The notes beneath the pieces were generated by a model, which did not search any database, was not told where the DNA came from, and saw only the letters and a program-made list of their open reading frames with translations. Source: Pomacea canaliculata (Eukaryota > Mollusca > Gastropoda > Architaenioglossa > Ampullariidae). Taken from it: a DNA stretch of 64,000 nt. Positions 3,976 to 51,048 of the stretch are shown here, piece by piece (within the stretch, counting starts at the first letter, position 1; each line of letters starts with the position of its first letter). The stretch is from the NCBI RefSeq assembly GCF_003073045.1, contig NC_037596.1, positions 7,025,416 to 7,089,415 of the forward strand, in the 5' to 3' direction. A program made the position numbers and the translations under genes.

Positions 3976-4092
3976 ATGAGCGTGAAAATATTACTGCTGT
4001 TATTACTGTTGTTCTCTGTTTGCTCCTCAGCAATACGAAGGAAGCTGTTGCAAGTGAAAATCCGATATTACTGTCGTGATGAAATCAAATGA
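3976..4092 (+). other. Short ORF with signal-like N-terminus overlapping the gene 1 start
   Basis: A 38-codon frame begins MSVKILLLLLLLFSVCSS and continues with a basic stretch (IRRKLLQVK), then stops 14 bases inside the first exon of gene 1 in another frame. The N-terminus looks like a signal peptide. However, the bases from about 4055 are homologous to the untranslated leader of the signal exons at 58140 and 63697, which argues for 5' UTR. It may be an upstream ORF of gene 1 or an accident of a Leu-rich (CTG/TTA) stretch. Confidence 0.2.
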
Positions 4093-7000
4093 AATGATCG
4101 GTCCGGTTGGTTTAGTCCTAATGTTCCTCGTTCTTTATTTTACAGGTACGTTCATGATTTTGCCATTGTTTTAACCTTGAAGACATCTTCCACGTAGAAT
4201 TATGAAATCTCATGAGAATATTCAACATCTTATTACATATCATAGTAGGAGATAGTGGACAGCGGTGCAGTTTTACCCCATTAAACACGACCATTAAAGG
4301 AAATCATGAATGAATGTCCCTCAGCGGATGATTGATGATGACTTATTGTTTTTACCAGACTTCAAACGTCAAAACAGAAAACTATTTTTTTTAATCGATA
4401 GCTGGTGTACTCTCGCCATTATTGTGTAATAGTTTTGCGAAAAAATAACTTAGACAAAGATTAGGCGTTTCTTTTCATACCTGGTAGACTAATATGTCAT
4501 TTAGGCCTCTCCGATGACCTTCTGGCAGGTAACGAAAGAATCTACAAGATTACACTGAGTGACCATAGAGAACGAATGGATAGCAGCTATGAGACATTGA
4601 AAGTCGTGGTCACACACACCAGAGCACAAAAAATATAGATGAAAAAAGCAGCTTCCAATATTCGGTACCTGTCGTGTTTAAAGATGGCAGCTAAAGTAAT
4701 CCGCATCATTTCATCTATATTGATGCCTTACAATCAACTTTAAAAAAGTCGCCTCCCGCGACAAATTTTCTTGACTTGATAAAAGAATTCTCGATCTAAA
4801 TGGTCATTCGTTTATTACTTTCCTGTTCATATATCTCAACATGTTTTCCTCTTGTTCTATGTCTATCAACAAACTGCGGAATATTAACACTTTTTGCACT
4901 GTTGTTCAGTCGTAGGCGCACAAGACCCGTGTGACGCCAGTGATGCTAGGAAGATCATGTCCTGTGCTTCTATTTTCGACTGGAACATATTTTCACCGAA
5001 ATGGGACACTTGTGAAAAGGAACTAATCACAAAAAAATTTTGTAGGTGAGTTGACAAAGTATTTAATATATCACTTCCTCTCATTTTGACCGTCTTGCTG
5101 GCTGTATGACTGGCTGGCTTTCTGTGCACTAAATTCGTTATGTCGTTTATGCTTTGGTATTTTTTATGTTGCTGGCTGTTAAAATAAACTAGTCTACATC
5201 GAAATGAAAAGTACCTTCACATGAGGTATCAGTTGGCTTTCTCGGAAATGTTTGTCTCATTATCAAATATTAATAAATAATAAATAATAAAAAATAAATA
5301 AATAATAGCATAAACTACAGTCAACAGCATTACCGTATTCAAGTTCTTGCTATATACTAATGTCATATGGCAACATTGCTTTATCTCAGTAGCCTAAGTA
5401 GTAAATTGAAAAAGGAATACAAATTGTTCATGGTAATTTATCTTTTGCAGAGACATGATACTGATGCACTTGTGTATGATTCAAAGTGATATTTCACCAG
5501 TTTGCTTGGAGGACAGTTCAACAGAGACAGATTTATACGGTATGATTGTGTTGGTAAATGTATCCTGTCTGCATAAAAATCTTCTAGAATAAACGTACCT
5601 GCAATTTCAAATGGCAGTATAAAGTAATAGTAAAATAAAAACAGTTGCAGTAATCACTATTCAGACATCAACTCTTATTTTTTTCTTACTAAAGCAGTGG
5701 GTGATATAAATATAGTTTAGGATCGTCACTTTTTTTTCCGTTCTGTTGGCGGATGATAGAAACAGTTTACATATCTCTTTCCCTTCTACAATCATCTCTT
5801 GGAAAGATTTTGGTTTTATAAAAATAGCATGAGGTAAAAGAACTCAATTGCCAGCCAATGTAATTGGGTTCGGGTTAGACTTAGAGCATTAAGAGTGATG
5901 GTGGTGTTGTCTGTATTGGCAAATGTACATTTTTACGATAACTGATTATTTTGTCGTTTATTGCCTTAGCGATCTACTGCGCACTTGTAGTTTATAGCGG
6001 TCACTATCTTCTCAAATACATGTAAGTATTTTTCAAATTTTTATTATTTTCTCTTGGAAGTTTTCGGCTGCTCACTGAACGACGTGGAGAAAATTTGTAC
6101 CGAAGGTAAATCGCTTTTAATCTGCTTCGAACATTTTGTCTTCTTTGTTAATATTCTCTATGGCAAGTTGAATATCACATTATTTCTCCCACCAGCAACA
6201 TTAACTTATTGGTTGTAGCACCTTCTGTACTCCTTATGTCTTTCTCTTTGTGATCATGTTATGCAATCGGTTTCTTTTTTGTCTTATTTTAACTGGTGTT
6301 TGTCTCTGAAGGTATCTTCCAAAGTATAAAATGGCTTTTTTCTTTCAGTCGCCAACTTATTCTTGTCCTATGTCCTGTTTTAGATAATCATTAACAATAT
6401 CCTGATCCTTTTTTAGTTATTACAGTAATATATCTTATATTACCTAAAGATGGCAGATGAACGGTGCAAATCGTGATCATTTTATATTTAGTGATTTCGT
6501 ACACTCATACTAACTCTCGCAAAGCCAGAAGAAAATGTTTTATCTTGATAAAACAATTCACGATCTATCTAAGCAGATATCTGTTATTTGTCTTATAATA
6601 AGTTATTTATATCAACAATACACTTTCCTCTCGCTCTGTGTTTATCAATAGAATAGCTGCTTCTCACACGTTTGTTACATTTGTCTTCAGTGCTGGAAAG
6701 ACCAGAACAGTGTGACTACGATGTAGTTGAAAAGTCAATGTCCTGTATTTCTGACAGCTTCTTGAACTTTCTATTACATCACGGCGCTTCTTGTAATACT
6801 GAACTAATAACAAAGGATCTTTGCACGTAAGTTTAAAAAGTATTAAATATTTAATGTGTGAATACCTCCCCTTCTTTTTGTTTAATTCGTTATGTTGTTG
6901 ATGCTTTTCTATTATTATTAGAATATTATGATTTTTTTGGTCTGTTAATTTAAAATGGTTTAAATTAAAACGGAAACTCTAGGTACCATACGTGTCCGAC

Positions 7001-9330
7001 CATTCTCTCGGAATTTTTATCTCATTATTACATATTAAACAGGGACGAACAGATTAAATTAAACTACTGTCAACAACATAGCTCATATTGCTATATTATT
7101 ATCAAATGGTCATTGCTTTTTCTGTCACGTTTCGAGGAAAGTAAAAAGAAAAGGAAGAACATTTTGTTGCAGAGATTTTTTATGGACTATGGAGTGCTTC
7201 ATTAAAAAAGATATTTCCTCATATTGCTTGATGTACAACGTAACAGAAGGATCTCAGCAAAACGGTATGATTTCGTTCTTAAATGAATCTGATTTACAAA
7301 TAAGATGCTAATCTTATATACATATATGCTAGTGCTATTGAAATTTTTCATTAAAGTTGAAAATTGTATTGTATTTAAATAGTTACTAAAACTCAGTTGG
7401 AACAGTCAGTATTCAGTCACCAATATTTTTAACGACGATAATGGCAGAGGTGGTAGGGAAACTTTTCATTATCTGTCGTTAATTACTAAAACACTCTGTG
7501 TACAGTTGAATTTTATCATTGTCAAATTTCTATCTGTTCTGTTACCTAATGACTGAGCACTTAAAATAAATGTTACATTTCTTTCTCACTTTTGCAAGTC
7601 TCTCTTGTGTAGAGTTTGATTGTACAGTGCGCCACTTGGAGGAAAAGTGCATCGATGATCGTTTCATCAAAAGACACGGTAGATGACACCTTTCTTCATT
7701 TCTTTGTTGACATTGTCTTTTAAGAAAAGTGAAAGATACATCATTTTTCATCAATATTGAAACCTTTACTGTAATATATTTAATTCATTCATTGTGAAGT
7801 TTTTACACTGACTAGGACTGTATCTCTATAATTAACTGCAATTTGGTTGAGCTTTTCTTCATACAAATTTAAACATTTGTAGGAGAGCTTTTTACGAAAT
7901 ATTTAGTAGTTTGGTAGTTATACCATTTTAAATCAAAATTTCTTAAAATTTAACACACTGTTCACAAAAAAATTCATTAAAAAAAAAACTAAGCCGATTT
8001 TGCAAAATCCCCCTCCTACGTTTGTAGATCTTCCTTTTAGGTAACTATTTCAAACAGAATTTTGAGTCTACTCACAAAATTGACGAAGTTATAAGCTTTT
8101 TAAAATGTTTGTTTGGGCGCCATTTTGGATTGTTTCCATGGCAACCGATAGCGCGACGAGTGCAGTAAAACTATTTTTTGAAACTTCATTCAAAGGCTAA
8201 ATAGCTGATACAAAAAAATCCGCGCTATCCCGTGAAACAAAAAACTTTTTTTTTGACCGGTGTCTGGCCTTAAGATAAGATAAGATTACTTTATTGTCCA
8301 GCAAAGGAGATGTGTCTTCCAGCATGCAAGCAGTCAGAGAGAAAATCAAAAACATCAACAATAACATCAGCAATGGCAGAAGTGAGCACACACACACACA
8401 CACGCCCGTATCAAAAGGACAATACACCAGTTTCCATGACTACATAATATTAAATGTTGTTTGAATGTCTATTCTATGCACAACACACGTTTGCCAAACA
8501 CGCATCACAGCAAACCTATTTTAGTTATCATGAGAACATGGAAAGATACAATTCTAGACTAACTTATTTATACAAAGTATCAAAACCCTCATATCAATGC
8601 AGCGCTTTTCGTCTCATTTTACTGACTCTCAAATGTCAACATGTCAGACCACTTCTTCACTCGTTTAAACATTTGTTTAATCGCTATTTGTGTTTCACTG
8701 CACAGGAGATTCGGTGCAGACTACAAAACCTGGAGGTAAGAATTTTTTGCTTACATATTATACAGGTATTAGCAAGAGGGTTAGCTGCATTTCTTGAGGA
8801 AATAATCAAAATCCCACTGTGCTCACCCCCGTTACAAATTAGTCAAAACCAAACAGAAATTTTTCAAACATTTTATCACAATATGTTTTGTTTTCCAATT
8901 GACAGGAACTTCAATTCAAACAAGAAACTCGCCATCTAAAACTCGCCATGTACAGTTGAGAGGTACACAAACTAGCCCTATATTTCTACAGTCGATGTGT
9001 ACAGCTTAGCCATATATTTCTACAGTTGGGATGTGTAGTCAGTCTAAAGCTGTATAGTCGGTATGTACGTAGGATGTTATAGTCCTGTATGTTTACAATT
9101 AAAACACAGGCTAGCTCTAGTCAGCATGTATTAGGACTAGTCCTCTTTCCTCTCTACAAATTTGGTTTTTGTTGTTGTAATTCATGTATTCTTTTTCTTT
9201 ATTTACGTGCATCATTCATGTTTCAGGGCAAACTAAAGGTGCCAGAGGAGGTTCAGTGACACACACTTCTTTTGCCCTGTTAATTGTCATCACCATCCTA
9301 TTGCTGTTTATTTCCATGCAGATTGTGTAG
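4079..9330 (+). CDS. Gene 1: GPI-anchored-type protein with two 8-cysteine modules
   Basis: Spliced model of 273 codons: 4079-4145, 4910-5045, 5451-5539, 6061-6105, 6691-6826, 7173-7264, 7613-7678, 8706-8735, 8906-8962, 9227-9330. All junctions are gt/ag and the sum keeps one frame. The first exon gives a signal peptide. I chose the ATG at 4079 rather than 4094 because the exon is then 67 nt, as in four relatives, and its leader matches theirs. Module 1 and module 2 each show C-x10-C-x15-C-x9-C-x8-C, a second exon-B cysteine, and a C-x7/8-C pair in exon C. Two short phase-1 linker exons follow, rich in Gly, Ser, Thr, Gln and basic residues. The last exon ends in about 16 hydrophobic residues up to the stop (ALLIVITILLLFISMQIV), typical of a GPI-anchor signal or tail anchor. 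Module function is unknown; a surface role is inferred. A DUF19-like or hemolymph-protein-like relationship is possible but untested. Confidence 0.82.
7940..8270. other. Unclassified dispersed-repeat-like segment in gene 1 intron
   Basis: This block in the long intron before the first linker exon has a different texture from the rest of the intron. It has A-rich runs, then a more GC-balanced core near 8113-8160 containing gcgccattttggattg and ccatggcaacc, then A-runs again. It looks like an inserted non-coding element, but I could not define terminal repeats or a target duplication. Confidence 0.25.
8268..8345 (-). mobile_element. 3' tail of a non-LTR retroelement
   Basis: Read on the minus strand, the segment ends in ggacaataaagtaatc followed by repeated ATCTTA units, the kind of short-motif tail seen at LINE and SINE 3' ends in molluscs and other animals. 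Only the 3' end is recognisable. Confidence 0.4.
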
Positions 9331-9604: not shown

Positions 9605-9610
9605 AATAAA
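9605..9610 (+). terminator. Poly(A) signal of gene 1
   Basis: An AATAAA hexamer lies about 275 bases after the gene 1 stop codon. No nearer AATAAA was seen. Confidence 0.55.
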
Positions 9611-13515: not shown

Positions 13516-16500
13516 ATGGACTTCTCGAAATGTTTGATGTTGCTAGTTCTGGTCCTTTGTTTTGCAGGTATGTACCTAACCTCTTATCTTCTGTTACGAT
13601 TTTCTGCTCTGTTTAACTTATGTTTTAGTTATTACTCTATCCATAGTTTGTATTTTAGTCCACATTTTTTTACCAATGTGACAAGATAAAATGCTTTTAT
13701 GCGTCTGGACAAGAACCACTTGTAAACCTTCGGGAAAATATACTTGACAAATTTAATACATTTTAGTACGCTATTGTTTTTTTAACACCTGTTGTGTGTG
13801 TTCGTAGAAATACAGGGCAAGTGTGAAAAGCAAGAAACCGATGAAATTCTTGCTTGCGTTTCGCCTCATATGATGCATTTTTTTTCATTTGCAATCAGTC
13901 CTTTTTGTGCAAGACATCTTATCACACAAGATATTTGCACGTGAGTTAATGTCTTCCTGTTGTACTACTCGCTTGTTAGTATTCATTATCAAATATAAAT
14001 TATGTGAACGGCTTGCTACAATTATCTAAGGGTTATTAATGACAGAATACTGGTTTTTTCTTCAAGTAAGATACAAATCTTCTTGATTTTACCCAGGAAG
14101 TTTGCAGACATCGTGCGATGTGTTAATGGCGTTAAACTCTCATCGGAATGCGTACGAGACTCTGCCAAGCAACTCAGCACAAACTTGGGTAAGCATTTAC
14201 ACCAATCAGTCAAAGAAAGTGATGAAACGATCTGGCAGTGACATTATTTAGTTGGAATAAAGTAGATTAATTAAAAAAAGAAAGAAATCCCTGACTCTCT
14301 GCTCTATCCTGGAAAACAATCTTGCGTTAGAATTACTTTTCTACGGACATGCGTTAGAATTTCAGTAAAACCAAAATCTGTCTTGTCTATAGAGATATAT
14401 ACAGATTTTTGTTTCTCAGAAGATATCTTATTCAGCAATTAAAACTTCAATATCTGTTATACATTATTTCTATTTTCCCATAATAATTCTTGTTGCCAGA
14501 GATTGCTTGTAAGCTGAATGACTTCCAGGAAGTTTGCATTAACGCACCTGCCCTTCGGACAGGTAAGTATTGTTCATTGAACAGTTTATTTAATTTGTAG
14601 ATCTTCGTACAAAAAGCTACAAAAAATATAATTGATTACTCTTCCATGCTACTCGGTAAAATTATAATTTTATATATATATTTATGTACTCACTCCCCCT
14701 GATTTAGTTTTATTTTATCTTCCTTTTTTAACCGCCTAGTTCTAGTTAGCATCCCACTTGGTCTCCACGTTTTCTTTCGTTTGTATTTTTATACCACGTG
14801 AATTCTTCGCGTAATTCATCGAGATTAGAGAGACTGAAGACAGTGGCAAGTAGCATTCCTTTCCGTCGCATCATTTGTAGTAAACGAAATTAAGTATAAA
14901 AATCGCAGACTGATACTTAAATGAGAGAATAAAAACCCTTTCACTGCCAACCCAGTATCTTCAAACTTGTACATAGTAAATGATCTTTGTACATTAAAAT
15001 AGTTTCCAAAAAGTCATCTCTTGATATTCAAACATCGCTTTAGGAACATTGACCTTTGATTCAAAAAAAAAAAGAGTATTTTAAATTAATGTTTTCCATA
15101 ACTCTTTGCAGAAATCGACTTGTCAGCGCAATCGCTACCTGTCGGTAAAGGTGAAAGTGGTGCATCCTATGGTACAGGATATACTGTGCAGACGACAACT
15201 TCTCCAGCTAAAAGTAAGATTTTTTGTGTGTAGAAGCTCGAATTAACAAAACATTACTAGAGATAATATTTTACAGAAGATGCGTGCTTCCCGAACGATG
15301 AATCCTGAACTAAGCTACTTGCTTATTGTAGAACCTATTATGAGTGTTGTTTGTGTTTGTTTGCTGTTAGTTTATACTAGAATATTAAAATATGCTTTAG
15401 AAGTTATTTATATCCATATATAAAGTTGCGTGTCTGAAGGCCCCACCCTATTCACACACTCTGAGAATAAATATAATAATCGTTTGTGGACTTCAAGAAA
15501 TGCGACAATCCACTTGAGTAGACGGACGACGATGTTAATAATAATATTAATAATAAAGGTAAACAAACCCAATACGCATCCTCTACCACAAGTTTCTCCT
15601 TGAGCATGAGTAATAAAAAAGTACACTTTAAATTTAATAAATGTTAATGCAATATATGTTTTTTTCTGTTACATATGTTTCGGAAATACAAGTCAAGTGT
15701 ACGAAGGAAGAAATCGACGTCTATGCCAATTGTTTGTTGCCTCACATGTTGAGCTTCTCCCCGGTGCTGAGCGGCTCTTCTTGTGACAAAAATCTTATCT
15801 CAAAAGATATCTGCAAGTGAGTTACTTCACACGCAATATTCCTCCATTGTGTTGCACATACACAAAGTAAATAAGCACTTGTATGTGTGTGGACATGTTC
15901 AGGCATTTACTCACAAACTATACAAACGCTTGTTTATATTATATTATTATATTTATATTATTATTATAGATTAATATTGCGATGTGTTTATATGTGAGTG
16001 TGGGCGTGCAATAATTTCATATTGTGAGATTATTTTTATTTATCACAATATCCTATTAATATCAGCATCTTTACAAGAAGCAGGGTGTTACTTGCTGAGG
16101 TTGAAAGCCTCTACAGATAATTTTTTGACAACACTGGAGTTAACATTTTTTAACAAAATATTTGTGGATGTTACCACAGGAGGGTAGCAGATGTTGCGCA
16201 ATGTTTCCATCATGCCACAGCTACACGGATTTGTGGCATTCACCTTGCCCAGCAATATGCCACACAGCTGAGTATGTTTTTAAAAGAAAACAGGAATAAA
16301 AGGAGAAAATTATGTCTCATGAAGTCCAACATTATTCAACAAAATCAATCTGTTCAATTTGAAACTTGACTGAATTACAATCGACACTGTAGAGACGGTG
16401 TCAATGATTTGTACTAGAATTTTATATATGACCCACACGTATGTCTTGTTTATCGGGATATGTTCAAAAGATTATTTTACCTGTATCTTTAGTGCTTTAA

Positions 16501-19500
16501 TATTTGTTGCACATTATCTTTAGCAATTTACATTTTGGCAGATTTTTCTTGTAGCCTGAATGTCATCTTCGAAGTTTGCGCCAACATTTCCATGCTTGAC
16601 ACAGGTAAGTGTTCTGAATTATTTGATCCGATTGTGGTCTTCGAACGTTGAAACTAATCGTCTATATTTATTTCCCACCAGCGGATTGTGAAATACTATG
16701 AAATATTATATACTTTTTGTGTTAATTTGTAAGGTTTTTTTTTACTTTTATATTTTCGCTAGTTTCTGGCAATATATATATATATGGTTTAGTCCTTGTT
16801 ACTCGAGGAGCATAGGGCAGCAATATATATATAATTTTAAGATAAAGAACACACAGAAAAGAGAGGTACTAAAAGGACCAAGACCAAAGTAAGCAAGAAA
16901 AATCCTTTTTGCAACGAATAGTAAGACCAAAGACAATGACAAACTCATAAATATCTTTTAAGCTATATTTTACATTTTCGCAAGGAAAGAGGAACTAAAA
17001 AACAAGAACAAGAGCTGAGAGTAACATGATATGGCAACAGTAAGGGTGTGAACAAGGACTAGCACTATGGGAAAGTACAGCAAAGTAACACATAGCATTT
17101 GTGTTTATTAACAGAGACTCCCTTAATTGTGGTACTGTTATAGAGAATTCTTTTCTATCTGGGTGCTTCTAACTTTGCATGTTGACGATACATATGCTCC
17201 CTGCCTGTAATGATGCTTCTAATGATACAGGAGATGCTGTAGAAACGACAGTATCTTCAGCAGAAGGTAAGATTGACTTTGATAGCTTGCATACACATAA
17301 CTCTCACCACATTGTTAAAGAGAGCAAAAATATAAAGTGAAGGAGGCTGAGAACAAACAATCAAATCAATAGCTAGGAGGATATATATATATATAAACAT
17401 ATAGTCTGTAGATAATACAACAAAATAGAAACAATATAAAAATCGCTTGCTCTCAATGTATGTATAAAAATGTAGATATATATAATCATCATTGACTTTC
17501 ATTAAACAAAAGCTTTGGAGGTTTTTCTTGTATTTTTTCTTATTAACATCTGCAATTTTCTTCTATTTTTTGGTAGTATTTTTACACTGCAAAAGCTAAT
17601 TCTATGTTATGGTGATTTATTTTTCAGCTGTTCAAGCTCCACTTATAAAATAACCGTATATAGTCTCTGTATTCATAATATTTTAATATTAAAGGATCAT
17701 TTTAGCAATTGCTTTTATTACTTTCATTCATTTTTTTAATGCCATCCTCTAATAGCTTTCGAAAAAGTTTCCTGCAACAAGAAATGTTTTTATGTTGGTC
17801 TATATGAACGATGACAAATAAAATTTAATAATAATTACTTAAAGATTGATTTATGTTATTAAAGATATTAAATATTACTTTCACAAATGTATGTTGTATG
17901 TTGTTATCTTCTAATAAACAAGGTCTATGTAAGGAGCAGAGAAGTAGTGCTTTCAGTGCCTGCATTACTCCCTATAGCATGATGTTCATCCGGCTGACGA
18001 GAGGCTCTTCTTGTGATAGAAAACATCTCTTAGAGAACTCTTGCGAGTAAGTGGACATATAGGTGTATGCCAACTGTTCTTGATTAAACGATATATGTAT
18101 TGAGCTTGATGTGTAGCCTACACGCCTGAATACCACTATACTTACAGAATCTACACACTTGAGTACACATATTCACAAAATGTGTATATGTGGAAGAGTG
18201 GATATAATTTATATAAAAAGAAACAAGTAAAATAAAATAGACAGGGTCAAAAATGACAAATTAACAAGCACATATGACTTCTTGAAGGGTGGTTTATGAG
18301 TATTTAATAGCTTATGACACATGAGCAGAAAATATTTCTTCCAGTAGTAAAAAGTAGAAAGATGTTCTCTCCCCAAGTACTTATGTATTAATTACTCTTA
18401 ATTGTTGCTAGCAGTAGTAACAATATGTCAGTTAATAACAGATACGTCATCGTGGTGCTAATAGTAGAAAGTTCTTACAGTTCTGTTCTTTTAAAATTAC
18501 TTCTATTAATTAGTTTCAATATATTTTTTTTCTTTTTCTCAGTCTATCTTTATATCCAGCTGGTTACTTTTTAATCGTGAATACAACTATCATGACAAGG
18601 GACATAATAAGCCTTGCAGAATAACTCCAGAAAACTTGAGTTCACATTCTCGCAATTGTTTATGATATTATTGTTTATGATATTATTGCAGGGATTTTGA
18701 ACATGTCGTGCAATGTTTCAATAACCTCAAAGTTACCAGGACATGCAGGCGTCAGTTCTTTAGGGAAATCAGCTCGGATGCCAGTATGTGTTTAACATCA
18801 ACATCTTTCTATAATTATATTTCCCAACCAGATCATGTAAAGTCAGCTTTATGTTTGAAGTCACTATCAGAATTCCTTTCTATGCCATTAAACAAGATGC
18901 TTATGTAATATTATCAAAAGAAACTTTTATACGTCCCATCATCTTTGTTAGTTGAAATTTATTATCATGATATAATTAGGAATACTTGAGTATTTATTTT
19001 GCTTTTCATGTCTTTCTCTCTTTACAATTTTCTTCTTGTAGATTTCGCTTGTAAGCTGACTGACTTTCAAGAGGTTTGCACTGATGCTCCTGCCTTTGAC
19101 ACAGGTTGGTGTTTTTCATTAAATACATCATAACCAAAGAATACTTAAATATCACACTGATTATATCATGCTGTTTCCATGTTGTTGCATAACCTTCCTT
19201 TGTCAACATCAGGTGTCCATGTTTTGTTATATAAACTGAAGCCACCGCTTTACAGGTCCCTTGAGATGAGGGAGATAATTCTCTTCTTTAATTAATCTAT
19301 GTTTATGCCATTCACCACGCACTGAGCTAGTCGGAAACCAAAAAAACAGGGTTTCCTTGTTTTACAAATCTGAATTTTTCATTTGACCATAAAATCATTT
19401 TACTTTTATACTGTTGCTGCTCTTTCAGATGCAGTCTTACAATCATTCTTCAAAAGTTATTTAGATATTTTAATGAATATAATTAATTTATAATTGAAAT

Positions 19501-20755
19501 GATTCATTTATGATTGATATAGTTAATTTATAATTAATATAATTAATTTATGCTTGATATAATTGATTTATGATTAATATCATTAATATAATTTATATTT
19601 GTATCAGTTTTCACATAGCAGATCAAGATGTACCGGTAACTAAGAAAAGGAAATATATACTACTGTATCATGCAACCTTAATGCACTTTCTTTTATTTTA
19701 CGAATATTTTACGAATATTGCATCTGCAACTAGTGTCGGAGACAGAAACCCAGTGCGAGGAGGAAGAACTCAACTCCTTTGATGAATGCATCTTACCATA
19801 CACATTGAGTTTTGCTCCATTGACAAGTGGCCCTACATGTAACAAAAATATTATCTCGAAAGATATTTGCCTGTGAGTTGATTATGCTTTTGTGTAATTA
19901 TATATTTTATACACATACAAAAAATTCAACAATTTATGAGTATCTTTGCTTCTGGTTCTGCTGCTCTTGATCTCCTGTTTTAAATTATTTTAGGTATATT
20001 ACTGTATACCTTAAAAGATTTTTTGAAGTGATGTTTTATAAAATAACTAAAATCAGCGAGGATGGTCGTGTCAGAAACTGAGAGCAGTGAGTATTTTTAA
20101 GCACAAAAATAATTTTCACTTCAATTTTGTAAAATAAAATCCTAGTGAATTTTCGATATAATCATTCAATATTAAGTAATATTAAAATAGTGTTCTATAT
20201 ATATAGACACACACTAGTACTCATACATACTTTTAATCCAAGGTTGTTCATCAATACCCTTATTCTCAGACATGCTCTGGATTATTAAATGTATCAATTT
20301 ATGTTTGAAGTTTGGGCTAATGTGTGTCCTGTTGACAAATTTTCTGTTTTTTTTCAGGAATTTTGCAAATATCGTGCATTGCATCAATGATGTCAAAGCT
20401 TCAAAGATGTGCAGGCGTCAGTTTGCAGAGGAACTCCACATACAAATGAGTATGTTAATATTTACATATTTCTTCCTACACATGATGCCCACACTCATAA
20501 TTTCCTTAAGTAGGATTTAGGTAGAGGGAGAGTTTAAGAATTCCTCTTCTGTTTTTTCAAAAGGGGTTTTTGCATAACTAGAATAAAAAGTTGTTTTTAC
20601 GATGAATAGCCCAAACTCTGATGTAAACAAAATTGTTCTGACTTATTTGGGATAGAAACTGCATTTAAGTAGCTTTTGTGTGAGAAGGAGTAAATGAACT
20701 ACATTAGAGCTTTGATTAATTAAACACACTTTTTTATACATAAAAATTGTTGTTG

Positions 20756-20851
<96 letters not shown>

Positions 20852-23716: not shown

Positions 23717-24992
23717 AAGAAATGGAGAGGAATAAAATATGTGTTAAATAAAGTGATCTCGTTATAAAAGTTTTATATCTGTCACGGTATTTTGTAACTG
23801 CCTAAGACGATTTGGCTAACACACTATTTTCATTTTCTACCAACTCTTTGCTTGGGAACTACTGGTACTCGTTTTTTCCCATTGTTATAATGAGAATGCT
23901 GATAACCTTTTATTAACACTTTTTTGTTTGGTTTTGTAAGAAACTTCTTTGATTTTTAGTAGTGCTTCTAAAGATTTCTTTCTTAATTATACGAATATCT
24001 CACAATATACCCTTGCACCTCATGATCTGTTTTTCTTAGAATAGATGACTCAGACTGAGTGTGAAAGAAATACTATAAACAAAAAAAGGTGTGATAAAAA
24101 AGTACAAAATCTCACATTTCATTTTGCATAAATTTCATTGTTATGTTTTATTATGACAGTAATCATGGCTTCTTGAAAGTTGCTGCAACATTCAGTTAAT
24201 CCTAGAGCTTGCATAGCAATATTTAGAGCTAAGAATATATCCAGTACAATGTAGGCCATCATAACAACCTGTACTAGGGCTACAAACGACTGTCTTAGAT
24301 GGTTTGATAAATGATTGTAAACACAAAATGTAATAATAACTTATATAATGAAAGTGTGTCATAAAAAGGGAGTGAAATACTTTAACAAATGTTTCATGTA
24401 TGATTTAAGGTATGTGCATTTTTACCATAACTACTGAATAAATTCTTCAAGATATGTTTAGCACTTGACTTTAATGTAATAAAAATACTAAAGGAGTTTT
24501 TATTTGTGTTATATATTCATGTTATCGCACATATTAATCTATGTCATCCTAAATCAGTTAAACAATGTATGCACGCACACAAACACACAGACAAATTTAC
24601 GCGAATTTAAAAAAACACTAAATCACATTTGGTTTCATACATCTGGATTCGTTCTTGATCTCATCGAATGGACTGTCTATGGAAGCAGAGAATAGAGACA
24701 TTTAAAAATACTTTCACAAATATATTACATTTGCATAACTCTCTACAACATGCATTTATGTACTAATCCATTACTCAACAAGAAGAACACAATACAGATG
24801 ATAAGGAACAAGTCAGACTGAGATGTGTGCATGGCGACACAAATATGTTTAATGACAACTGTACACGAAAAGCACGTGTCTGAATGACTCGAATATCTGC
24901 TGGTGACTAATCCCATGAGCACGGACAGCATTTAACAAACGGATCTTGAGATCAGCGACACCTTTAGCTGAGAATTAAAGATAAAGCCTATC
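23717..24992. other. Convergent intergenic region, gene 2 to gene 3
   Basis: AT-rich sequence with no exon that I can support. It holds AATAAA hexamers at 23731 and 23747 for gene 2 and a minus-strand ATTAAA near 24848 that could serve gene 3. Confidence 0.6.
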
Positions 24993-27900
24993 CTACATAT
25001 GTGCTATCAGGGATACAGTAATGGCGGCTCCCAGCAAGATGCCAGCACCTGCAGCTCCGGCACCACCTTCAACAGACTCAACAGTCTTTTTAAAATGACC
25101 ATTTCATGGACAAACATTGATGGTTACTGTCATTACTTGTGGTCACTGACATGTAGATGCTCATTTATGATTAGGAATGTAAGTATTGACTTTGTAATTA
25201 AACATGCCGCATCAGGCTTCTTAGGCTTCAACTAACATTAGGCAAAGAATACTGAAAACCTCAGACATGCAATAAGGATGCAGACAGAAATTTTAAAAAA
25301 GAAAAGAATTATTTAACGGGAAAGGGATGCTATAGCAAAGTTTTAGGCACGAAAGTTGGAGTCTTACCAATGTTCACTGCTGGAACTCTGCGGCAAGCTT
25401 CTTTAAAGTCTTTCATTTTACAAGGAATTGCTGAAATAAGAAGAGGGTATTTCTATAGTACCCAGTACCAAAGAGCAATTCATGATATTTTTACTTATCG
25501 GTATTGTCAATATGCTCTTTCTCTGTGCTTTCAATGTAGACAAAGTGTCTAATATCTAAGTAATCTGGAATCTATCCATCTATCATTAGCTAGAGGATAT
25601 TGTTGCTTGATGTTTTACATATACATGTACTACACTATGTGGATGAGCATTTGTATACATATGTTTACATTCATTATCATCCATCATCCATCATCATCAT
25701 CAGCTTTCGACCATACCCGACTGTTGATCGATCTGTTCCACAACGTATGGCCGACATGTTGTTCTGGAAACGATTTTCTTATTGGCACAGAACACAATGG
25801 CGGCGAAGTCCCTGGAGTACACGTGAACAATAAATTATTGTCAAAGCTCAGATTATATTTAGACCTGCTGTTGGCACTTTTGAAAGACATTTCACCTAGA
25901 CTAACACTGGAAGAAAAGAGAAATAAGAGCAGGACCTTTGACATTTTATTTCTTACATTAGCTGGTCACGTGCCCTGCATCAGTAAGTGGACAGCTATAA
26001 ACAAATAAGAGTTGTGTTGCCTTCTTTAAAAACGTTTCTTTGATTGTTTTGTGTCTTTTCAGAGGAGAATGTCTTGATTTGTAAAATATACAATGAACTT
26101 GTTTAACTCACTTGCACACGCCTTCCGAGATAAGAGCACGGTTGCATGATTTTCCAAATCCAAAAATCTTTATAAACTTTTGAGTGTAAGGATCAAGACA
26201 TTCAATTAATGTAAGCAGTTCTTGAACGGTACATTGAGCCTGTTTCCCTGTCCCTGGAAAAAGAAACAAAACTGGCAGCTGAATTATTTTGTGATATAAA
26301 GGTGAGAAGCACATTAGTTTTACAGCAAGACTGTCTTTACCCAATCAGTTGTAATCATATGAGAAGATAATAGTTCAATGGCCTGGTGGTTATCTCTCTT
26401 GCAAAATGTTTAAACTTCGGTGCAAGAAACCATTGCCCGGATACAAAGCAAGTATACAGTCCAGAGGACTTCGTTTTGTGTGTCGTCTACATCTTCCTCC
26501 ACAGACGACTACTACAGCCTTGAGTGGAAAGCAAATTCTGAGATACAGATGTACTGATTTGTAGACGCTTATTTATGGTTTGGATGGTTAATATTTACTC
26601 TGTAACTATGGCAGGATTTATACGGCTTATAAGGCTTTAACAAACAAAAGACAAAGAATAAGAAAAGCCTTCGACAAACAATAAGAATATAGAAGAAATG
26701 TAAGGAAAGAATAAATAAAGGGAAAGCGATGAATATACTAAAATTGCCGCGCGCAAAGATTGTGTGTCACAGAGAGAGAAAGAGAGAAAGAGAGAGATCC
26801 CCAACTCCTACCAACATTCCATGATGTAGCTTCGTGGCACAATTCTTCAAAGTCAGTCACTTTACAAGGAATTGCTGTAATAAGAAGAGATTGTTGTATC
26901 AAGGCTCAGTGACAAAAAGTAAATCATTAGTTTTCTTTCTTATCAGCATTTTAATATTATCTTTCTCTTTGCTTTATCATTAAAGTATACACAATCTTAG
27001 AAGGGTCTAAGTAATCTTGTAACTACCTATCCATTTATCTATCATTAGTTAGGGGTATACCTAATACGCATATTTAAATCTTTATACATACAACCAAGAC
27101 ACTTTTTCCTAGGGAGTACTTATATACGTATATATATATGTCTCTTTACATTCAATAAATAAATCTTTTCAAGCAACAATTGTGAGATTTAAAACAATAC
27201 CTAATATTTGATCAACAACTTTTGCAGAAAGTGGTAGACATGTTCTGGAAATATTTTTCTGGTTGGCACAGTCAACAATGGCGGAGAAGTCACTGAAATA
27301 CACATAAACAATAAATTATTATAAATACCAGATTATTATTTTTTGTATTTGTTCTTGGCACTGTTGGTAGATATTGCGCCTAGAGCACTTGACTAACACG
27401 GGCAGAGCTCAGAAGAACAAAGAAGTCAGAGCAGGAGACAGCGTGACCTTTGACATTTTTTGAGCATTTTATCTCTTCTGTTAGCGAGCCACATGCACTG
27501 TATCATTATGTGATGACTAAAATAATATATTTTGTGTTTTCTTTGATAGCGTTTGATGTGTGTGAGTCTGTGTGTCTTTTAGACTGAAAGAGAGAAGAAT
27601 GTTTTGATGTATAAAGTATTTAATGAAGATTTAGTCTGTATAACTCACTTGCACACGTCCTCAGAGATGAGAACACGCTTGCACGAACCTCGAGCTCCAA
27701 ATATTTGCAAGAATTTTGCATTGTAAGGCAGAATGCATTTTATAATTGTAAATAATTCTTGTTCAGTACATCGCGCATGTATTCTCGTCACTGAAAACAG
27801 AAACAAAGAATGTCCGGGTGAAACGCGTTCAACTAGTGAAGGTCATTTACTGGATGGTTCACGTGCTTCACGGTGGACAGTTCACACTCCATTGCTTCCC

Positions 27901-30141: not shown

Positions 30142-33100
30142 CTACATATGCGCTATCAGGGATACAATAATGACCGCTCCCAGCAGCCTCAGCGAGATGC
30201 CAACACCTGAAGCTCCGGCAGCTCGTCCTGAAACAAAATCATTTTTTTTTTATTAAAAAAAAGCCTCAGGAACAAAAATTGATAGTTTCACTTTTAGCCT
30301 TGTCACTAGCCTTTAGGCTACGTTTCCTGTCCTAGACTTTAAATGTCTGTGTACAACGGAAAAGAAATCGGCAATGACGTCACAACGGCTTCCAATCACG
30401 TGTTCATAGGTCGTAGGCATGAAGCAAAACTCGGATCATCCCAGGGTTGTTTAAAGAGTAACTTAGTTTCCTGCTTTTTAAAACAACCTCAACAGAAGGT
30501 TTGAATAGAAGAAAAGTTCATTTTCCAGTCTAGAGGACTTCGTTTTGTGAATAGTCAACATCTACTCTACAGAAGACTTGCCAGAGCCTTGATTAAAAAG
30601 CAAATCCTGAGATAAACATGTACTGATATGGAGACGCTTATTTCTGGTTTGGATGGTTAATATTTACTTTGTAACTATAACATGCTTTATAAGGCTTATG
30701 AGGCTTCAAGAAACAAAAGGCAAAGAATAATAAAAACCTTCGACAAACAATAAAAATGTAGAAGAAATTTAAGGAAGATAGGAAAGTAAAAAAGGGAAAG
30801 CGATAAATATACTTAAATCGACTAGCAAGATAAATAGAGTGTGTGTGTGTGTGTGTCACAGAGAGAGAAAGAGAGGAAATATATTAACATGTCTTACCAA
30901 CGTCCAATGCTGGAGCTTTGGAGCACAATTCTTTAAAGTCAGTCACTTTACAAGAAATTGCTGTAAAAAAAGGGGGAGTTGTTTCAAGTATTAAGTTCCA
31001 AAGAGTAAATCATTATTTTTTTTCTTATCAGTATTCTTAATAGTCTCTCTCTATCCTTTATCTGCATATAAGTTTACACAATCTTAGATAGTAGGGTCTA
31101 AGTAATCTTGTAAGAACCTATCCATTTATCTATTATTATTGAGGGGGTATTTCTAATTCGCATACTTCAATCTTTACACATATATGTACGATACTTTTTC
31201 CTCGGGAGTACTTATATACATACATGTATGTCTGTTTACATTGAATAATTATAATCTTTTCGAGAACAATTGTGAGTTAAAACAATACCTAACATGTCTT
31301 CAATCTGTACTCCAATGCGTGGCCGACATGTTGAGCTGGTAATGTTTTTCTGGTTGGCACAGATCACAATGTCGGAGAAGTCACTGAAATACACGTGAAC
31401 AATAAATTATGTAAAAACCTAGATTATTTTTTCGTCCTTTTTGTACCTTCTCTTGGACATGATGGTAGATATTGCGCCTAGAAGCCTAGAATAACACGGG
31501 CAGAGCTAAGAAGAACAAAGAAGTCAGAGAACAAAGCAGCGTGACCTTTGACCCTTTTGAGCATTTTATCTCTTCTCTTAGCGCGTCACATGCGCTGTAT
31601 CATTATGTGGTTGACTAAAATAATATATGTTGTTTCTTTGATGGCGTTTGATGTGTGTGAGTTTGTGTGTCTTTTGGATTGAAAGAGAGACGAATGTTTT
31701 GATGTACAAAGTATTTAATGAAGATGTAGAGTCTGTATAACTCACTTGCACACGTCATCAGTGATGAGAGTGCGGTTGCATGAACCTCCAGTTCCAAATT
31801 TTCGCGAGAACTTTCTATTGTAAGGCAGAATACATTGTAAGAATATGCTGAGTTCTTCTTGAGTACATGGCGCGTGTGCTCCCCTCACTGGAAACAGAAA
31901 CACAAGTCGCAGATGAATTATTTTGTGCATAAAGGTCTAAGGTCAGAAGCATATTAACTTCACAGCTAAACTGTCGCTAACCAGTCAATTGTTCGGCACG
32001 ATGCAGGAGCATATCTGTTTACGAGTTTAAAGTTCTAATGCAAGGTAAGGCCTATTTCTCAAAAGAGTAATTTAGTTTCCTGTATTTGAAAACAGCTTTA
32101 AGATGGGTTTCAATATGAGAATAGGAGGTCGGTTTCCAGTCTATAGGTTCGTTTTGTGTATCGTCAACATCTACCTCTACAGAAGACTTGCTAGAGCCTT
32201 GAGTGCAAATCAAATCCTGACACACAAATGTACTGATTTGTAGACGCTTATGATTAGGATACTTAATATTTACTTTGTAACTATAGAACGCTAAGAAAAG
32301 ACTATAAGCCTTCAAATAACAAAATCAAAGAGTAATAAAAACATTCAACAAGTAATAAAAATGTAGAAGAAATTTAAAAAGAAAAGAATGTATAAAGGGG
32401 AAAGGTATGAATATACAGTGGAACCTCGGTTAGCGAACGCCTCGGATAGCGAATATTTCGGTTAACGAACAAAAATTTCGTTAAAAATTTGTCTCGGATA
32501 GCGAACAAAATTTCGGATAGCGAACAGCCACGTGAACCACACGTGACCGACCAGCATGTCATCATTCGAGCTCGAGACACAGTTACGATCGGTCGTTCCT
32601 TATCTATGCGCATCCTTCTTATTTAGTGATTGTTGTGCTTTATTTTAGTAAGATAATCCTCAATCATGGCTCCAAAAAAGATTAAGAGCAATTAATAGTA
32701 ATGATGTAATGACAAGGAAGCGGCCAACAAATGAATTGAAAAAGGAAATGATTTCAAAGTATGAAGGTGGCATATGCGTCTGTCGGATATGTGATGTCGT
32801 ATTACCCAAGAGTTTTACAAAAAAGACAGAAGGAGCAGACACTGGACAAGTTTTTTCCTTTAACCACAAAGCTACAGAAAAGGGAAGTCACCCCCGATTT
32901 TACAATGTCACGTGTGCTCATGGAGGGGGAATCCAAGCAGTAATTCCACCCCTTCCTCCCCACACCTGTTTCCACCCACGCCGTCAAAACGGCAAGTTTT
33001 CTGATGTTTAAATGCTTTCGTTAATGTTTTTATGTTTATTTAACTCCATTTATATTGCATTATAACTGTTCTCATTAAAACAAATACCTATATAGCCTGT

Positions 33101-35446
33101 AACTTTCAAATATTAGCGAGTCAACGGGGGCTGGGAACCAATTAAATCTATTTCCTTTATTTCTTATGGAAAAAAATTGTTTCGGATAACGAACATTTCG
33201 GATAACGAACAGCTTTCCAGAACGGATTAAGTTCGTTAACCGAGGTTCCACTGTACTAAAATTGCTGCGTCCAGAGATTGTGTGTGTGTGTGTGTGTCAC
33301 AGAGAGAGAAAGAGAGGAAGAGAGAGATCCACAACTCTTACCAATGTCCACTGCTGTAGCTTCGCCGCAATGTTCTTTAAAATCAGTCACTTTACAAGAA
33401 ATTACTGTAATAAGAAGTCGTTTGTCAAGGAATTAGTGGCAACGAGCAATTCATTAGTTTTCTTTCATATCAGCATTTTTAATAGTAGATAAAGTATACA
33501 TAATCTTAGATAGTAGTCTAAGTAATCTTGTAACCACCTCTGCATTTATCTATCATTATTTCGGGCGTATTTCTAATTCGCATGCTTGAATCTTTACACA
33601 TATATGTACGATACTTTTTCCTCAGGAGAACTTATATACATACATGTATATCTGTTTACATTCAATAATTATAATCCTTTCGAGCACAATTGTGAGATGT
33701 AAAACAATACCTAATGTTCCATCGATATGTCTCACAGCGTGTGGCAGACATGTTGCACTGGTGATGTTTTTCTTGGTGGCACAGATCACAATGTCCGAAA
33801 AGTCACTGAAATACACGTAAACAATAAATTCTTTAAAAAATCCTTATTTTTTCCCCTGCTCTTGGCACTGTTGGTAGATATTGCGCCTAGACTAACACGG
33901 GCAGAGCTCAGAAGAACAAATTAGTCAGGGAAGGAAACAGCGTGACCTTTGACATTTTTGAACATTTTATCTCTTCTATTAGCCAGTCACATGCACTGTA
34001 TCATTATGTGGTTGACTTAATAATAAATTATGTGTTTTCTTTGATTGCGTTTGATGCGTGTGAGTCTGTGTGTCTTTTGGACTGAAAGAGAGAAGAATGT
34101 TTGGATGTATAAAGTGTTTAATGAACTCACTTGCACATGTCCTCAGTGATGAGATCGTGGTTGCATAAACCTCCAGCTCCGAATTTTCGCGAGAACTTGT
34201 TTTTGTAAGGCAGAATGCATTTAGACAATGTATTGAATTCTTCTCGAGTACATGTCGCCTCTGTTCCCGTCACTTGAAACAGAAACAAAAGTGCCAGGTG
34301 AATTATTTTGTGCATAAAGGTCAGAAGGTCAGAAGCATATTACCTTCACAGCTAGACTGTCAAATGTTCCGGATGCTACAAAGACAGAGCTGTCTACGAG
34401 TTTAACGTTCTAATGAAAGGAAAGTGCGATTTCTTAAAAGAGTTTAAAGTTCAGTGCAAGAAATCATTTCCTAGATATGGACGAGTACCTCCTTGCGTCT
34501 AAACATCAAACTCTATAGGCGTTAGGTTCACAAAACAAGCAAGATTTTTTCTGACTATCATAGCTAAACCTCCAGATAGCCTTCCTGTGTTCTCTAAAGG
34601 TTTTAAAGACAGGAAGATAAATACAGTGTGGTAGAGAAACAAGTCATTGGGTATAGTTTCCCTAAATGTTTCTACAAGTAGAGCAAAATGAAATTCGTAA
34701 ATATATTTAATTAAGTCAGGTTTATACACATCGATGTTATAAGTGACAAATTTTAGGGATTTGTGTTTATTGCTCGTATCCATAGTAGCGTTGATAGCAT
34801 TATTGGAGCCGAACTTTGATGAGTTTCTAGCTTGAATATCCTCTGTCGCTGGTGTATTGTCTCCTTTACTCCTTTTAGACATTTTATGGCTGACTACACT
34901 TCTAGAATGCACAGGTGAAATGTATTCAACTAGCGAGGTCATGTACTGGATGGTTCACGTGCTTCACGGTCGACACTTCACACTCCATTGCTTCCCACTA
35001 GTATCGGAGTAAAACAAGCCTCGTGTTTGAAACTTTTTCCTGACTTGCACAGTTATTCTGTGAAACTCTGAGCCGTTAACAATAAATGTATACAGCCTAG
35101 TCTAAAAAGACTTTGTTCCGTTACTTCTTTTCAGTTGCTGACCAGTTAATGTCTTTATGCTTGTTAGTCACTTGTTATTTAATAAAAAAAAACTTAATTT
35201 GAAAATAGTCGAAGTAATAGAAAAACGTTTTATGTGCTTAGAATTAGAATAATAGAATCTATGTGGTTATGTACTTTTTTGTTTGCTTATTACTGATGCA
35301 AAATTCAGCTTAGAATAGTTATCTACCCATAATTGAGTTGACACCACCGCGACAGTCACAAAGAACAACACTGAAGTAAAGCAAAGACACGAACCAGTGA
35401 GAATCAGGACCAAGATCACCGGCACCACACCACAAGACCCACCCAT
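30142..35446 (-). CDS. Gene 4: GPI-anchored-type protein with two 8-cysteine modules
   Basis: Minus-strand exons in transcript order: 35446-35395 (signal peptide MGGSCGVVPVILVLILTG), module 1 34272-34131, 33805-33711, 33404-33342, module 2 31887-31746, 31383-31289, 30960-30898, and last exon 30227-30142. The total is 245 codons in one frame. Exon sizes 142/95/63 are identical in both modules. Asn-x-Thr/Ser sequons occur in exon B (KNITS in both modules) and exon A (CNRT). The last exon gives a Gly/Ala/Ser-rich spacer and a hydrophobic terminus (GAVIIVSLIAHM), GPI-signal-like. The introns of the two modules are themselves similar (31040-31270 against 33490-33690), so the second module arose by duplication of exons with introns. 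A Tigger-like transposon sits in the intron between the modules and a LINE fragment sits in the first intron. Confidence 0.87.
32416..33253 (+). mobile_element. Tigger/pogo-like DNA transposon, internally deleted
   Basis: This 838-bp element has near-perfect terminal inverted repeats (cagtggaacctcggttagcg at the start, its reverse complement with one or two differences at the end). It is flanked by TA on both sides (32414-32415 and 33254-33255). Subterminal copies of gataacgaac/gatagcgaac recur at both ends. The interior from 32665 keeps an N-terminal transposase-like piece (MAPKK, then KRPTNELKKEMISKYEGG) that stops making sense within about 60 codons; the catalytic region is absent. Genes 3 and 5 have the same intron site without the element. 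It is non-autonomous. Confidence 0.88.
34508..34915 (-). mobile_element. LINE fragment, endonuclease (APE-like) region
   Basis: Minus-strand translation contains KSLKFVTYNID at the front, LLVETFRETIPNDLF in the middle, and GRLSGGLAMIVRKNL near the end, the spacing of the N-terminal endonuclease domain of non-LTR retrotransposons. The reading frame starts near 34942 and runs out near 34499. No reverse transcriptase follows. Its borders can be placed because gene 5 (around 39795) and gene 3 (around 27820) have the flanking intron sequence without it. It lies in the first intron of gene 4. Confidence 0.6.
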
Positions 35447-35460
35447 GGCACGATGAGGTC

Positions 35461-37853: not shown

Positions 37854-40847
37854 CTACATATGCGTTATCAGGGACACAATAATGACCACTCCCAGCAGCC
37901 ACAGCGAGATGTTAACACCTGAAGCTCCGCCTGCAACAGAATCACCACATTTTTTTTTAAAAAAAAGGCCTACCTCAGGGACAAAGATCAATCGTTACAC
38001 TTGTAGCTTATAGTTGTACTTTTCCCTGTCCCAGACTACAACTGTCAAAAATCCGCATGGACGTCACAACGGATTCCAATTTCGTGTTGAGAGGTCGTAG
38101 GCATGAAGAAGCCAGATTATCCCAGGGTTGTTTAAAGAGTAATTTAGTTTCCTGTATTTGAAAACAGCTTTAACAGAAGGTTTGAATATGAGAATAGGAG
38201 GTCGGTTTCCAGTCTAGAGGTTCGTTTTGTGTATCGTCAACATCTACCTCTACAGACGACTACTAGAGCCTTGAGTGCAAAGGAAATCAGACATACAGAT
38301 GTACTGATATGTAGACGCTTATTTATCATTAGGATAGTTAATATTTACTTCGTAGCTACAGCATGCTTGATAAGGATTATAAAGCTTCAACTAAAGACAA
38401 AGAATAATAAAAACCTTCGACAAACAAAAAAAAATTATAGAAGAAATTTAATAAAGAAATTAATGTATAAAGGTGAAAGCGATAAATATACTAAAATTTC
38501 CCCGCACAAAAGATAGAGAGTGTGTGTGTTTGATTGACAGAGAAAGAGAGGAAGAGAGAAATACACAGCTCTTACCAACGTCAATTGCTGGAGCGTTGGG
38601 GCACGATTGTTTAAAGTCGTTCACTTTACAAGGAATAACTGTAATAAGAACAAGGTGTTTGTCAATGATTCAGTGCCAAAAAGCAATTCATTCACTTTCG
38701 TTCTTATCAGCATTCTCAATAATATCTACATGCTTTATCTGCAGATAAAATATACAAATCTTAAATACTAAGGATCTCAGTAATATTGTATTTATCTCTC
38801 AATCTATCATTAGTTAGTGGGTATTCTTAATAGTTATACATGAATCTTTACACATACATGTACGATACTTTTCGGGGGAGAACTTACATACATAAGTGTA
38901 TGTGTGTTTTCATTCGATCATCATAATCTTTTTTTTAGTACAATTGAGATTTATAACCATACACAAATGTTGGTCGATCTGTTCCACAGCGTGTGGTCGA
39001 CATGATGTTCTGGATACGTCTAGCTGGTTGGTACAGTTCACAATGGAGGCGAAATCCCTGGAGTACAAGTGAACAATAAATTATTGTTAAAGCCTAGATT
39101 ATTTTTTTTCTTTTTGTATCTGCTCTTGGCACAGTTGGTAGATATTTCACCTAGACCAACATGGCAGAGCTCAGAAGAATAGAGAAGTCAGAGTACGAAA
39201 CAGCGTGATCTTTGACATTTTTAAGCATTTTATTTTTTCTATTAGCTGGTAGCATGCACTACATTATTATGTCGATAACTTTAAAAAAATAAATGTTGTC
39301 TTCTCTTTGATCGTGTGTGATGCTTGTGAGAGTGTGTGTATGTGTGTCATTTGAACTGAGAAAGAGGAGATTGTATTGGTGTTTAATGTATATATATATT
39401 AAGGTATAAAGAATAAAAAGTCTGTGTAACTCACTTGCACACGTCTGCAGATACACGTATAATAGTATTGTTGCATGAGCCTCCAGTTCCAAAAGTCTTG
39501 TTGAACTTGTCATTGTAAGGAGTAATACATTTAAACAATGTATTTAATTCTGGGTCGGTACATTGTGCCTGTGTCCCTGTTACTAAAATTAGAAAATAAG
39601 CAGCTGAATTATTGTGTGCATACATGTCACAAACATTATTTTAACACCTAACTTTGTCTCTTAACTAGTCAATTTTTCGACTTGATAAAGGAACATAATA
39701 GTTAAATGGTCTAGAGGGGATTTCTCTTTCAAATAGTTTAAAGTTCAGTACAAGAAACAATTTCCCGGATATGGGCGAGTACTTCCTTTCGTCTCAACAT
39801 CAAAGTATACACAGTTCACCATTAACAGGTCAGGAACACAGGTCAGCCATTGTACAGTTTGTCGTGGAGTTGACAGCTCGGAATGGTTGGGTTCATATTA
39901 GGTATGGCAATTAGACATTTCTATAGATAAATGTGACCTCACAGAATTGAATCTTTTCTGTAAAAGGCATTAAAGGTTTATTCTATTTTTTTTTTACTTT
40001 ATTTTATTTATTTATTTATTTTTCAAACTAATAGAGTTGCTGTGATTTTTACATGGTTCAGGGAAAATTAATTTACTATTTATTTCAAACACACCATAAA
40101 CTTCTTATTACATTTGTGTGAGCGCGTTACTTGTCAAGTCTGTGCTCTCTCCTTGGATTTTAAATGCTTTTAATTCATCCTTTCTTCTAACACAAATCCT
40201 TGATAACCACAACATACAAAAAATCTCAAAGCCTTAAAATTAAAGAAAACTACAGGCCATTTACAAAGGTGAAGATATTGCCGCAAATCAGTACAAATTA
40301 ATCAAATCACGTGCACACTCTCAGTGAAGTGATGGCAGGTAATGATTAAGTATATTTTCCCCATTTCTAGGCTCTCTCCCTTTGAAAACAATCTTTGTTC
40401 CTCATTTAACAGTTGTGGTTCTCGTTAAAAATGTAATACTATCCATATGAGGATGGCGTGGACAAAGAAAAAAGAACAAAAACAACAAGAAAGGAGTTAA
40501 GAGAAAGAAATGGAATATAAAGAAAAGAAGAAAAACACCAAACAAACAAAAAATAAGAGAAGGTTGAACACAAAACGAGACAATAATGAGAAAAAGACAT
40601 ATCTGAGAGCTACAATATCACAAAGGAAGATTGGCAAGAAGTAAGACAGCAAAACAGGAAAGATTAGTAAGAATGGCCGAACAGGAGAAAGTCGACAGTC
40701 AGAAGAAACAGCAGACAGGGAGAACAGCAGACAAACTTGGAGAACAGAAAACAAAAATTCCTCTCCAACACCAAATCAAAGCAATGAAGACTTACCGGCG
40801 ACAATCAGGACCAGGATGACCGGCACCAGACCGCACGACCCACTCAT
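37854..40847 (-). CDS. Gene 5: GPI-anchored-type protein with one 8-cysteine module
   Basis: Minus-strand exons in transcript order: 40847-40796 (signal peptide MSGSCGLVPVILVLIVAG), 39582-39435, 39057-38963, 38638-38576, and last exon 37930-37854. The total is 144 codons in one frame. This is the minimal form of the family: signal, one module, GPI-like tail (LLGVVIIVSLITHM). Exon A is 148 nt because two residues are inserted between the third and fourth cysteines (CNNTIIRVSADVC). The exon B donor is shifted by one base relative to its paralogs (cattt-g-t/gtatgg), keeping phase 1. The first intron is longest and lacks the LINE found in gene 4. The upstream region differs from that of genes 3 and 4. 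Confidence 0.86.
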
Positions 40848-50998: not shown

Positions 50999-51048
50999 GT
51001 TTCTGCAGGTGAACTTTGCCAGCCACGTACGTTGCGGAATCCGTCACT

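Follow-up and report, generated by a model that had tools for sequence, protein, structure and literature searches.

What kind of protein is encoded by a stretch of apple snail DNA that carries the same small cysteine-rich exon cassette twelve times, and how have the copies come to differ? The stretch in question, hereafter the window, comprises 64,000 nucleotides (nt) of Pomacea canaliculata contig NC_037596.1 (positions 7,025,416 to 7,089,415). An earlier note on its sequence had proposed that five genes in it share a kit of exons with phase-1 borders and encode an undescribed family of 8-cysteine surface proteins. Our analysis points, with somewhat better than even probability, to a snail-lineage family of secreted and mostly membrane-tethered proteins, probably anchored by glycosylphosphatidylinositol (GPI), which are composed of one to several helical four-disulfide modules with a diversifying contact face.

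The exon scan assigned 12 A, 12 B and 12 C exons, including one frameshifted C exon, to five gene groups, with G1 (4079-9330) and G2 (13516-22782) on the + strand and G3 (28342-24993), G4 (35446-30142) and G5 (40847-37854) on the - strand. The phases are 0-1 for the signal exon, 1-2 for A, 2-1 for B, 1-1 for C and 1-stop for the tail exon. Exon A (124-148 nt) carries cysteines 1-4 and exon B, which measures 89-95 nt in all 12 copies, carries cysteines 5-6. Exon C carries cysteines 7-8 and is 63 nt long in nine of the 11 readable copies, the exceptions being the 45- and 66-nt exons of G1. All eight cysteines are kept by 11 of the 12 modules, while G2 cassette 4 has six because its C exon is broken. 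The spacing is C-x10-C-x15/16/17-C-x9-C-x8-C-x9/10-C-x14/15-C-x8-C in 11 of 12 modules; the third gap is x11 in G5.

The cassette pattern is not due to chance. Profiles trained on G3-G5 alone matched the G1 and G2 exons (E<0.01) in six of seven cases for A, two of seven for B and three of seven for C, and profiles trained on G1 and G2 alone recovered all five A exons, four of five B and four of five C exons of G3-G5 at the same threshold. These cross-trained runs found nothing beyond the cassettes at E<0.1, and a profile search of the window added no cassette to the twelve. Splice consensus sites were a requirement of the exon search and thus do not constitute independent evidence; for G1, for G3 and for the first half of G4, exon borders were set by splice consensus and homology. 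An independent check on the exon models is provided by database proteins, which were annotated independently. The shared five-gene phase-1 kit put forward in the earlier note is borne out by the exon scan, the cross-trained profiles and these proteins, and its 8-cysteine module and exon sizes (B of 89-95 nt, C mostly of 63 nt) hold in the counts given above. The features are as follows.

4079-4145, + strand: G1 signal exon, phase 0-1, with ATG, hydrophobic core and donor GTACGT
4910-5045, + strand: G1 cassette 1, exon A
5451-5539, + strand: G1 cassette 1, exon B
6061-6105, + strand: G1 cassette 1, exon C, short (45 nt)
6691-6826, + strand: G1 cassette 2, exon A, found by the G3-G5-trained profile (E 0.0036)
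7173-7264, + strand: G1 cassette 2, exon B
7613-7678, + strand: G1 cassette 2, exon C (66 nt)
9227-9330, + strand: putative G1 last exon, GPI-signal-like, with a small-residue stretch and hydrophobic end
13516-13567, + strand: G2 signal exon, identical to the start of P0007
13808-14562, + strand: G2 cassette 1 (A 13808-13940, B 14097-14188, C 14500-14562), in P0007
15112-15213, + strand: G2 linker exon 1, phase 1-1, 102 nt, confirmed by P0007
15693-16604, + strand: G2 cassette 2 (A 15693-15816, B 16180-16271, C 16542-16604), in P0007
17231-17266, + strand: G2 linker exon 2, phase 1-1, 36 nt, in P0007
17923-19104, + strand: G2 cassette 3 (A 17923-18046, B 18692-18783, C 19042-19104), in P0007
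19734-20975, + strand: G2 cassette 4 (A 19734-19872, B 20358-20449, C from 20920); C lacks 1 nt
21710-22782, + strand: G2 cassette 5 (A 21710-21848, B 21993-22084, C 22720-22782), past the end of P0007
28291-28342, - strand: G3 signal exon
26812-27790, - strand: G3 cassette 1 (A 27790-27649, B 27292-27201, C 26874-26812)
26443-26457, - strand: G3 fusion junction, where a C-to-tail intron joins a signal-to-A intron
25368-26253, - strand: G3 cassette 2 (A 26253-26112, B 25811-25717, C 25430-25368)
24993-25066, - strand: G3 tail exon, GPI-signal-like, placed as a homologue of the tail exons of G4 and G5; acceptor with a weak pyrimidine tract
35395-35446, - strand: G4 signal exon, with the unusual donor GTTCGT
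33342-34272, - strand: G4 cassette 1 (A 34272-34131, B 33805-33711, C 33404-33342)
32013-32062, - strand: G4 fusion junction
30898-31887, - strand: G4 cassette 2 (A 31887-31746, B 31383-31289, C 30960-30898), in P0001
30142-30227, - strand: G4 tail exon, in P0001
40796-40847, - strand: G5 signal exon, in P0003
38576-39582, - strand: G5 cassette (A 39582-39435, B 39057-38963, C 38638-38576), in P0003
37854-37930, - strand: G5 tail exon, in P0003

The database proteins fit these models closely. G5 corresponds to P0003 (LOC112568409, Pomacea canaliculata), with identity over 144 of 144 residues, and all 440 residues of P0007 (LOC112569125, 440 aa) could be rebuilt from 15 G2 exons, both linkers included. 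The zero to two linker exons per gene of the earlier note are therefore confirmed for G2 only, where P0007 contains two. Exon C4 of G2 has one base fewer than its sister exons, so that P0007 enters a shifted frame and stops at 20975, leaving cassette 5 outside a protein that holds three full cassettes and a cut fourth. This frameshift had been missed in the previous view of a large five-cassette product; the cassette counts of 1, 2, 2, 2 and 5 are right for the DNA, but the proteins returned hold fewer. For G2 we found no convincing tail exon, only weak candidates such as 23960-24039. A perfect (TTA)31 array (20759-20851) lies in the intron approximately 70 nt upstream of the frameshifted C4. 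C3 (19042-19104) and C4 (20920-20981) of G2 both have the atypical donor GTTGGT, and C1, C2 and C5 have GTAAGT or GTAGGT.

P0001 matches the second half of G4 over 128 uninterrupted residues and consists of one cassette and the tail, its start lying inside the intron that precedes the second G4 cassette. The introns before the G4 A exons (34339-34260 and 31936-31878, - strand) can be translated in frame into a signal-like peptide, MHKIIH..., since the pyrimidine tract encodes Leu and Phe; the P0001 start is the second of these reads (31936-31878). No database protein was found for G1 or G3 in the searches, in which G1 was queried solely via its two modules in alignment A2. Two single-cassette relatives, LOC112568889 and LOC112568891, have signal and tail types like those described here and are not encoded by the modelled genes. 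P0006, a protein from a 1,493-base contig, holds 31 residues of G5 exon B continued into the intron (39080-38913, - strand) and is probably snail DNA in another collection.

How cassettes are gained can be read from the introns, which G3, G4 and G5 modules have in common at 65-86% identity. G5 has the order signal, A, B, C, tail. After cassette 1, both G3 and G4 contain a G5-like C-to-tail intron that switches to a G5-like signal-to-A intron before cassette 2, the switch falling between 26457 and 26443 in G3 and between 32062 and 32013 in G4. No copies of the G5 signal or tail exon are present between the cassettes of either gene. This intron-to-intron join, with no exon copies in between, is most simply explained, in both G3 and G4, by fusion of two tandem genes through loss of the intervening exons, which left the reading frame intact since each of the joined introns is phase 1. 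It could be argued instead that the cassettes are small genes in their own right and that the two-cassette G3 and G4 are not real transcripts, as P0001 covers the second G4 cassette alone, starting in the preceding intron, and the paralogues P0002 and P0004, like G5, have one cassette each. We consider this unlikely given the composite intron and the lack of signal and tail exons within it; moreover, the P0001 start reads an acceptor pyrimidine tract, and P0007 is an annotated multi-cassette protein for G2.

The two fusion junctions are a plain example of phase-1 introns allowing whole cassettes to be added in frame, as had been claimed earlier for this locus. The accompanying claim of birth-and-death evolution finds support in the recent tandem copies, the frameshifted C4 and the two genes for which no protein was returned. 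In the tree, the two G4 cassettes group with G3 cassette 1, with G3 cassette 2 and G5 outside. The intron between C1 and A2 of G4 contains approximately 840 nt (33254-32416, - strand) with no counterpart in the corresponding introns of G3 and G5; a mobile element may have inserted there.

In the young copies, the module exons carry a statistical signal of diversifying selection. For the five modules of G3-G5, the ratio of nonsynonymous to synonymous substitution rates (dN/dS, or omega) is 0.49-1.22 in pairwise comparisons and 1.08 under a single-ratio model. The site model M2a improved on M1a by 25.3 in twice the log-likelihood difference, with an omega of 3.7 on 32% of sites, and in a parametric bootstrap with constrained and neutral sites and no positive selection none of 120 replicates, each optimised from one start, came up to that figure, their maximum being 12.8. 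The result held in four of five re-runs, which were those without the second G3 module (G3m2), with three close copies, with a star tree and with another topology. All eight cysteine columns fell in the constrained class (posterior 0.99), and all 40 cysteine codons are intact with open frames. Module exons also diverge more than their adjacent introns in six of six pairs without G3m2 (P<0.05 in five, Fisher test). Identity is 67-80% for module exons, 77-87% for signal exons and 84-92% for tail exons.

The predicted fold places some of the selected sites on a common surface. The AlphaFold2 model of P0003 is all-helical, with helices at residues 27-48, 63-78, 87-93 and 99-110 and ten-residue means of the predicted local distance difference test (pLDDT) of 56-83 within the module. 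The P0007 model has a like succession of helices in its three full modules and in the cut fourth, the last helix of which falls in the frameshifted residues; prediction was good for the first module only (means mostly 66-90). In helix 1, six selected sites (columns 9, 13, 16, 20, 24 and 27) lie within an 80-degree arc (permutation P 0.0002). This clustering supports the modelled helix 1 and singles out one of its faces; the fastest sites point to a specific contact surface.

Several results weigh against a diversifying contact face. The fifth re-run (G5m1, G3m2 and G4m2) was not significant (P 0.12), dN exceeds dS in just two of ten pairs, and the excess of exon over intron divergence is seen in none of the four pairs with G3m2, the introns of which are the most diverged. 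The selection tests sampled five modules of about 100 codons and used our own code with naive Bayes site calls, and gene conversion among copies could distort them. The trend toward one helix face is weak in the G2 modules (P 0.09), and model confidence is modest, with mean pLDDT values of 60.8 for P0003 and 60.1 for P0007.

An omega near 1 may also mean that no selection acts and that the tandem copies are decaying under relaxed constraint. The overall omega and the eight of ten pairs in which dN is below dS are in keeping with this, as are the frameshifted C4 of G2, the unusual G4 donor and the lack of a returned protein for G1 or G3. However, the cysteine codons and reading frames of all five G3-G5 modules are intact, simulations with constrained and neutral sites never reproduced the observed improvement, and module exons exceed, rather than equal, the intron rate in the six pairs without G3m2; relaxed constraint is therefore an improbable account. 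Alternatively, the exon excess and the site-model result might be artefacts, caused by gene conversion or by the alignment of the introns. The copies do lie in tandem and share introns at the identities noted above, and in close pairs dS also exceeds intron divergence. Yet conversion is expected to homogenise exons, not diversify them, the result persisted in four of the five alternative sets of copies or topologies, and an artefact does not predict that selected sites cluster on one face. We therefore regard an artefact as doubtful and retain diversifying selection on a contact face as the preferred reading.

Database searches suggest that the family is confined to this snail. Among the rows shown for five whole gene products and 14 members of alignment A2, no Pfam-A family scored above its curated cut-off; in the A2 scan six weak families appeared, each matched by one member alone. 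The sequence profile search of the PDB returned no distinct sequences at E<=10. There were no named protein matches outside Pomacea, all six named proteins being from Pomacea canaliculata. At the sensitivity available, these searches support a family restricted to one species, as would befit the undescribed family of the earlier note, for which the Pfam check gave no match among the families searched. The module seems to be an unnamed domain.

All five genes begin with a hydrophobic, signal-peptide-like exon, which is present in P0003 and P0007, and in four of the five the last exon has a small-residue stretch followed by a hydrophobic end. By reading, these tails end some 0-3 residues past the hydrophobic stretch, leaving next to no cytoplasmic tail. 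The signal exon and hydrophobic C-terminus suggest that the proteins are probably displayed at the surface via a GPI anchor, although the C-terminus may be a membrane span without a tail. The surface location claimed previously accordingly has its signal exon and, in four of five genes, its hydrophobic end, with location itself still predicted.

How might such proteins work? The cysteine scaffold would preserve the fold, and the partner would be contacted by one face of helix 1, together with sites within helix 3, behind it and near the last cysteine. The unusually rapid change of this outer face resembles that of proteins engaged in an arms race. The partner, changing in step, could be a parasite or microbe ligand or a conspecific gamete or egg-coat protein. 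More cassettes per gene would provide more contact surfaces, and the hydrophobic tail would keep the protein on the outer membrane. We more tentatively envisage an apple-snail recognition system with a private module, a helix-1 specificity face and a combination of point selection and intron recombination, serving parasite, self/non-self or gamete recognition; this is possible but clearly less probable than the general reading above.

Elsewhere in the window, positions 50388-63670 contain repeat units 4.1-5.6 kb apart, with three copies of many blocks at up to 97% identity. These units include sub-threshold EF-hand-like frames (51267-51605 and 60617-61429), a reverse-transcriptase piece in the third unit (Pfam RVT_1, E 1.3e-22) and TGTC microsatellite arrays, one at the corresponding position of each of the three (52530-52658, 56718-56838 and 62105-62214).

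Which known systems does the family resemble? Ly6/uPAR proteins have a small cysteine-rich module in one or more copies, a GPI tail and phase-1 exon borders, and the family described here is like them in its small cysteine-rich module, variable copy number, GPI-like tail and phase-1 borders. No Ly6/uPAR row appeared in the Pfam results for the five gene products and 14 A2 members, and the P0003 and P0007 models, of modest confidence, are helical and without strands, unlike the three-finger beta fold. The receptor activity-modifying proteins (RAMPs) gave the top, but weak, structural match; like the proteins predicted here, they have a small helical ectodomain braced by disulfides, and a hydrophobic segment comes after it at the C-terminus. 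Were the module a far-diverged offshoot of some all-helical disulfide family already known, the RAMP extracellular domain would be the best lead; the six RAMP cysteines would then correspond to cysteines 1, 2, 3, 5, 6 and 8, with 4-7 as the extra pair. We consider this very unlikely. The sequences show no similarity: the Pfam results for the five gene products and 14 A2 members contain no RAMP row at E<=10, and hhalign against RAMP1-3 gave a probability of 0.1%. Unlike RAMP1, which has six cysteines, the module has eight and is repeated as cassettes within genes, and its tails, ending where the hydrophobic stretch does, differ from the RAMP transmembrane segment with its short cytoplasmic tail.

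A likeness in mode of evolution is found in snake three-finger toxins and other venom genes (ASSET), in which the signal exon and disulfides are conserved and introns are more alike than exons (PMC2711939). The present genes likewise combine a conserved signal exon and disulfides with introns more alike than coding exons. They differ in fold and animal, and what we modelled in them is point substitution at individual sites.

Apple snails damage crops as invasive pests and act as parasite hosts. Detailed knowledge of recognition genes in snails comes, as far as we are aware, mostly from Biomphalaria. The present family is a compact setting in which to ask whether the number of modules and the variation of the helix face track parasites or mating.

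The nearest parallels in working appear to be the Guadeloupe Resistance Complex (GRC) and PTC2 of Biomphalaria glabrata. In these clusters the encoded snail surface proteins show much replacement divergence, many of them are single-pass and a link to resistance is known; the PTC2 genes have no known domains other than a membrane segment and no homology outside gastropods (PMC4361660, PMC7494358). As in GRC and PTC2, clustered genes here show excess replacement change, in this case between gene copies, by the site model and by exon versus intron divergence, with the exceptions given above. In contrast to those systems, the class of sites with elevated omega is here inferred between copies, yet few pairs have dN above dS, and the module is predicted to be helical, is braced by cysteines and ends at a hydrophobic tail.

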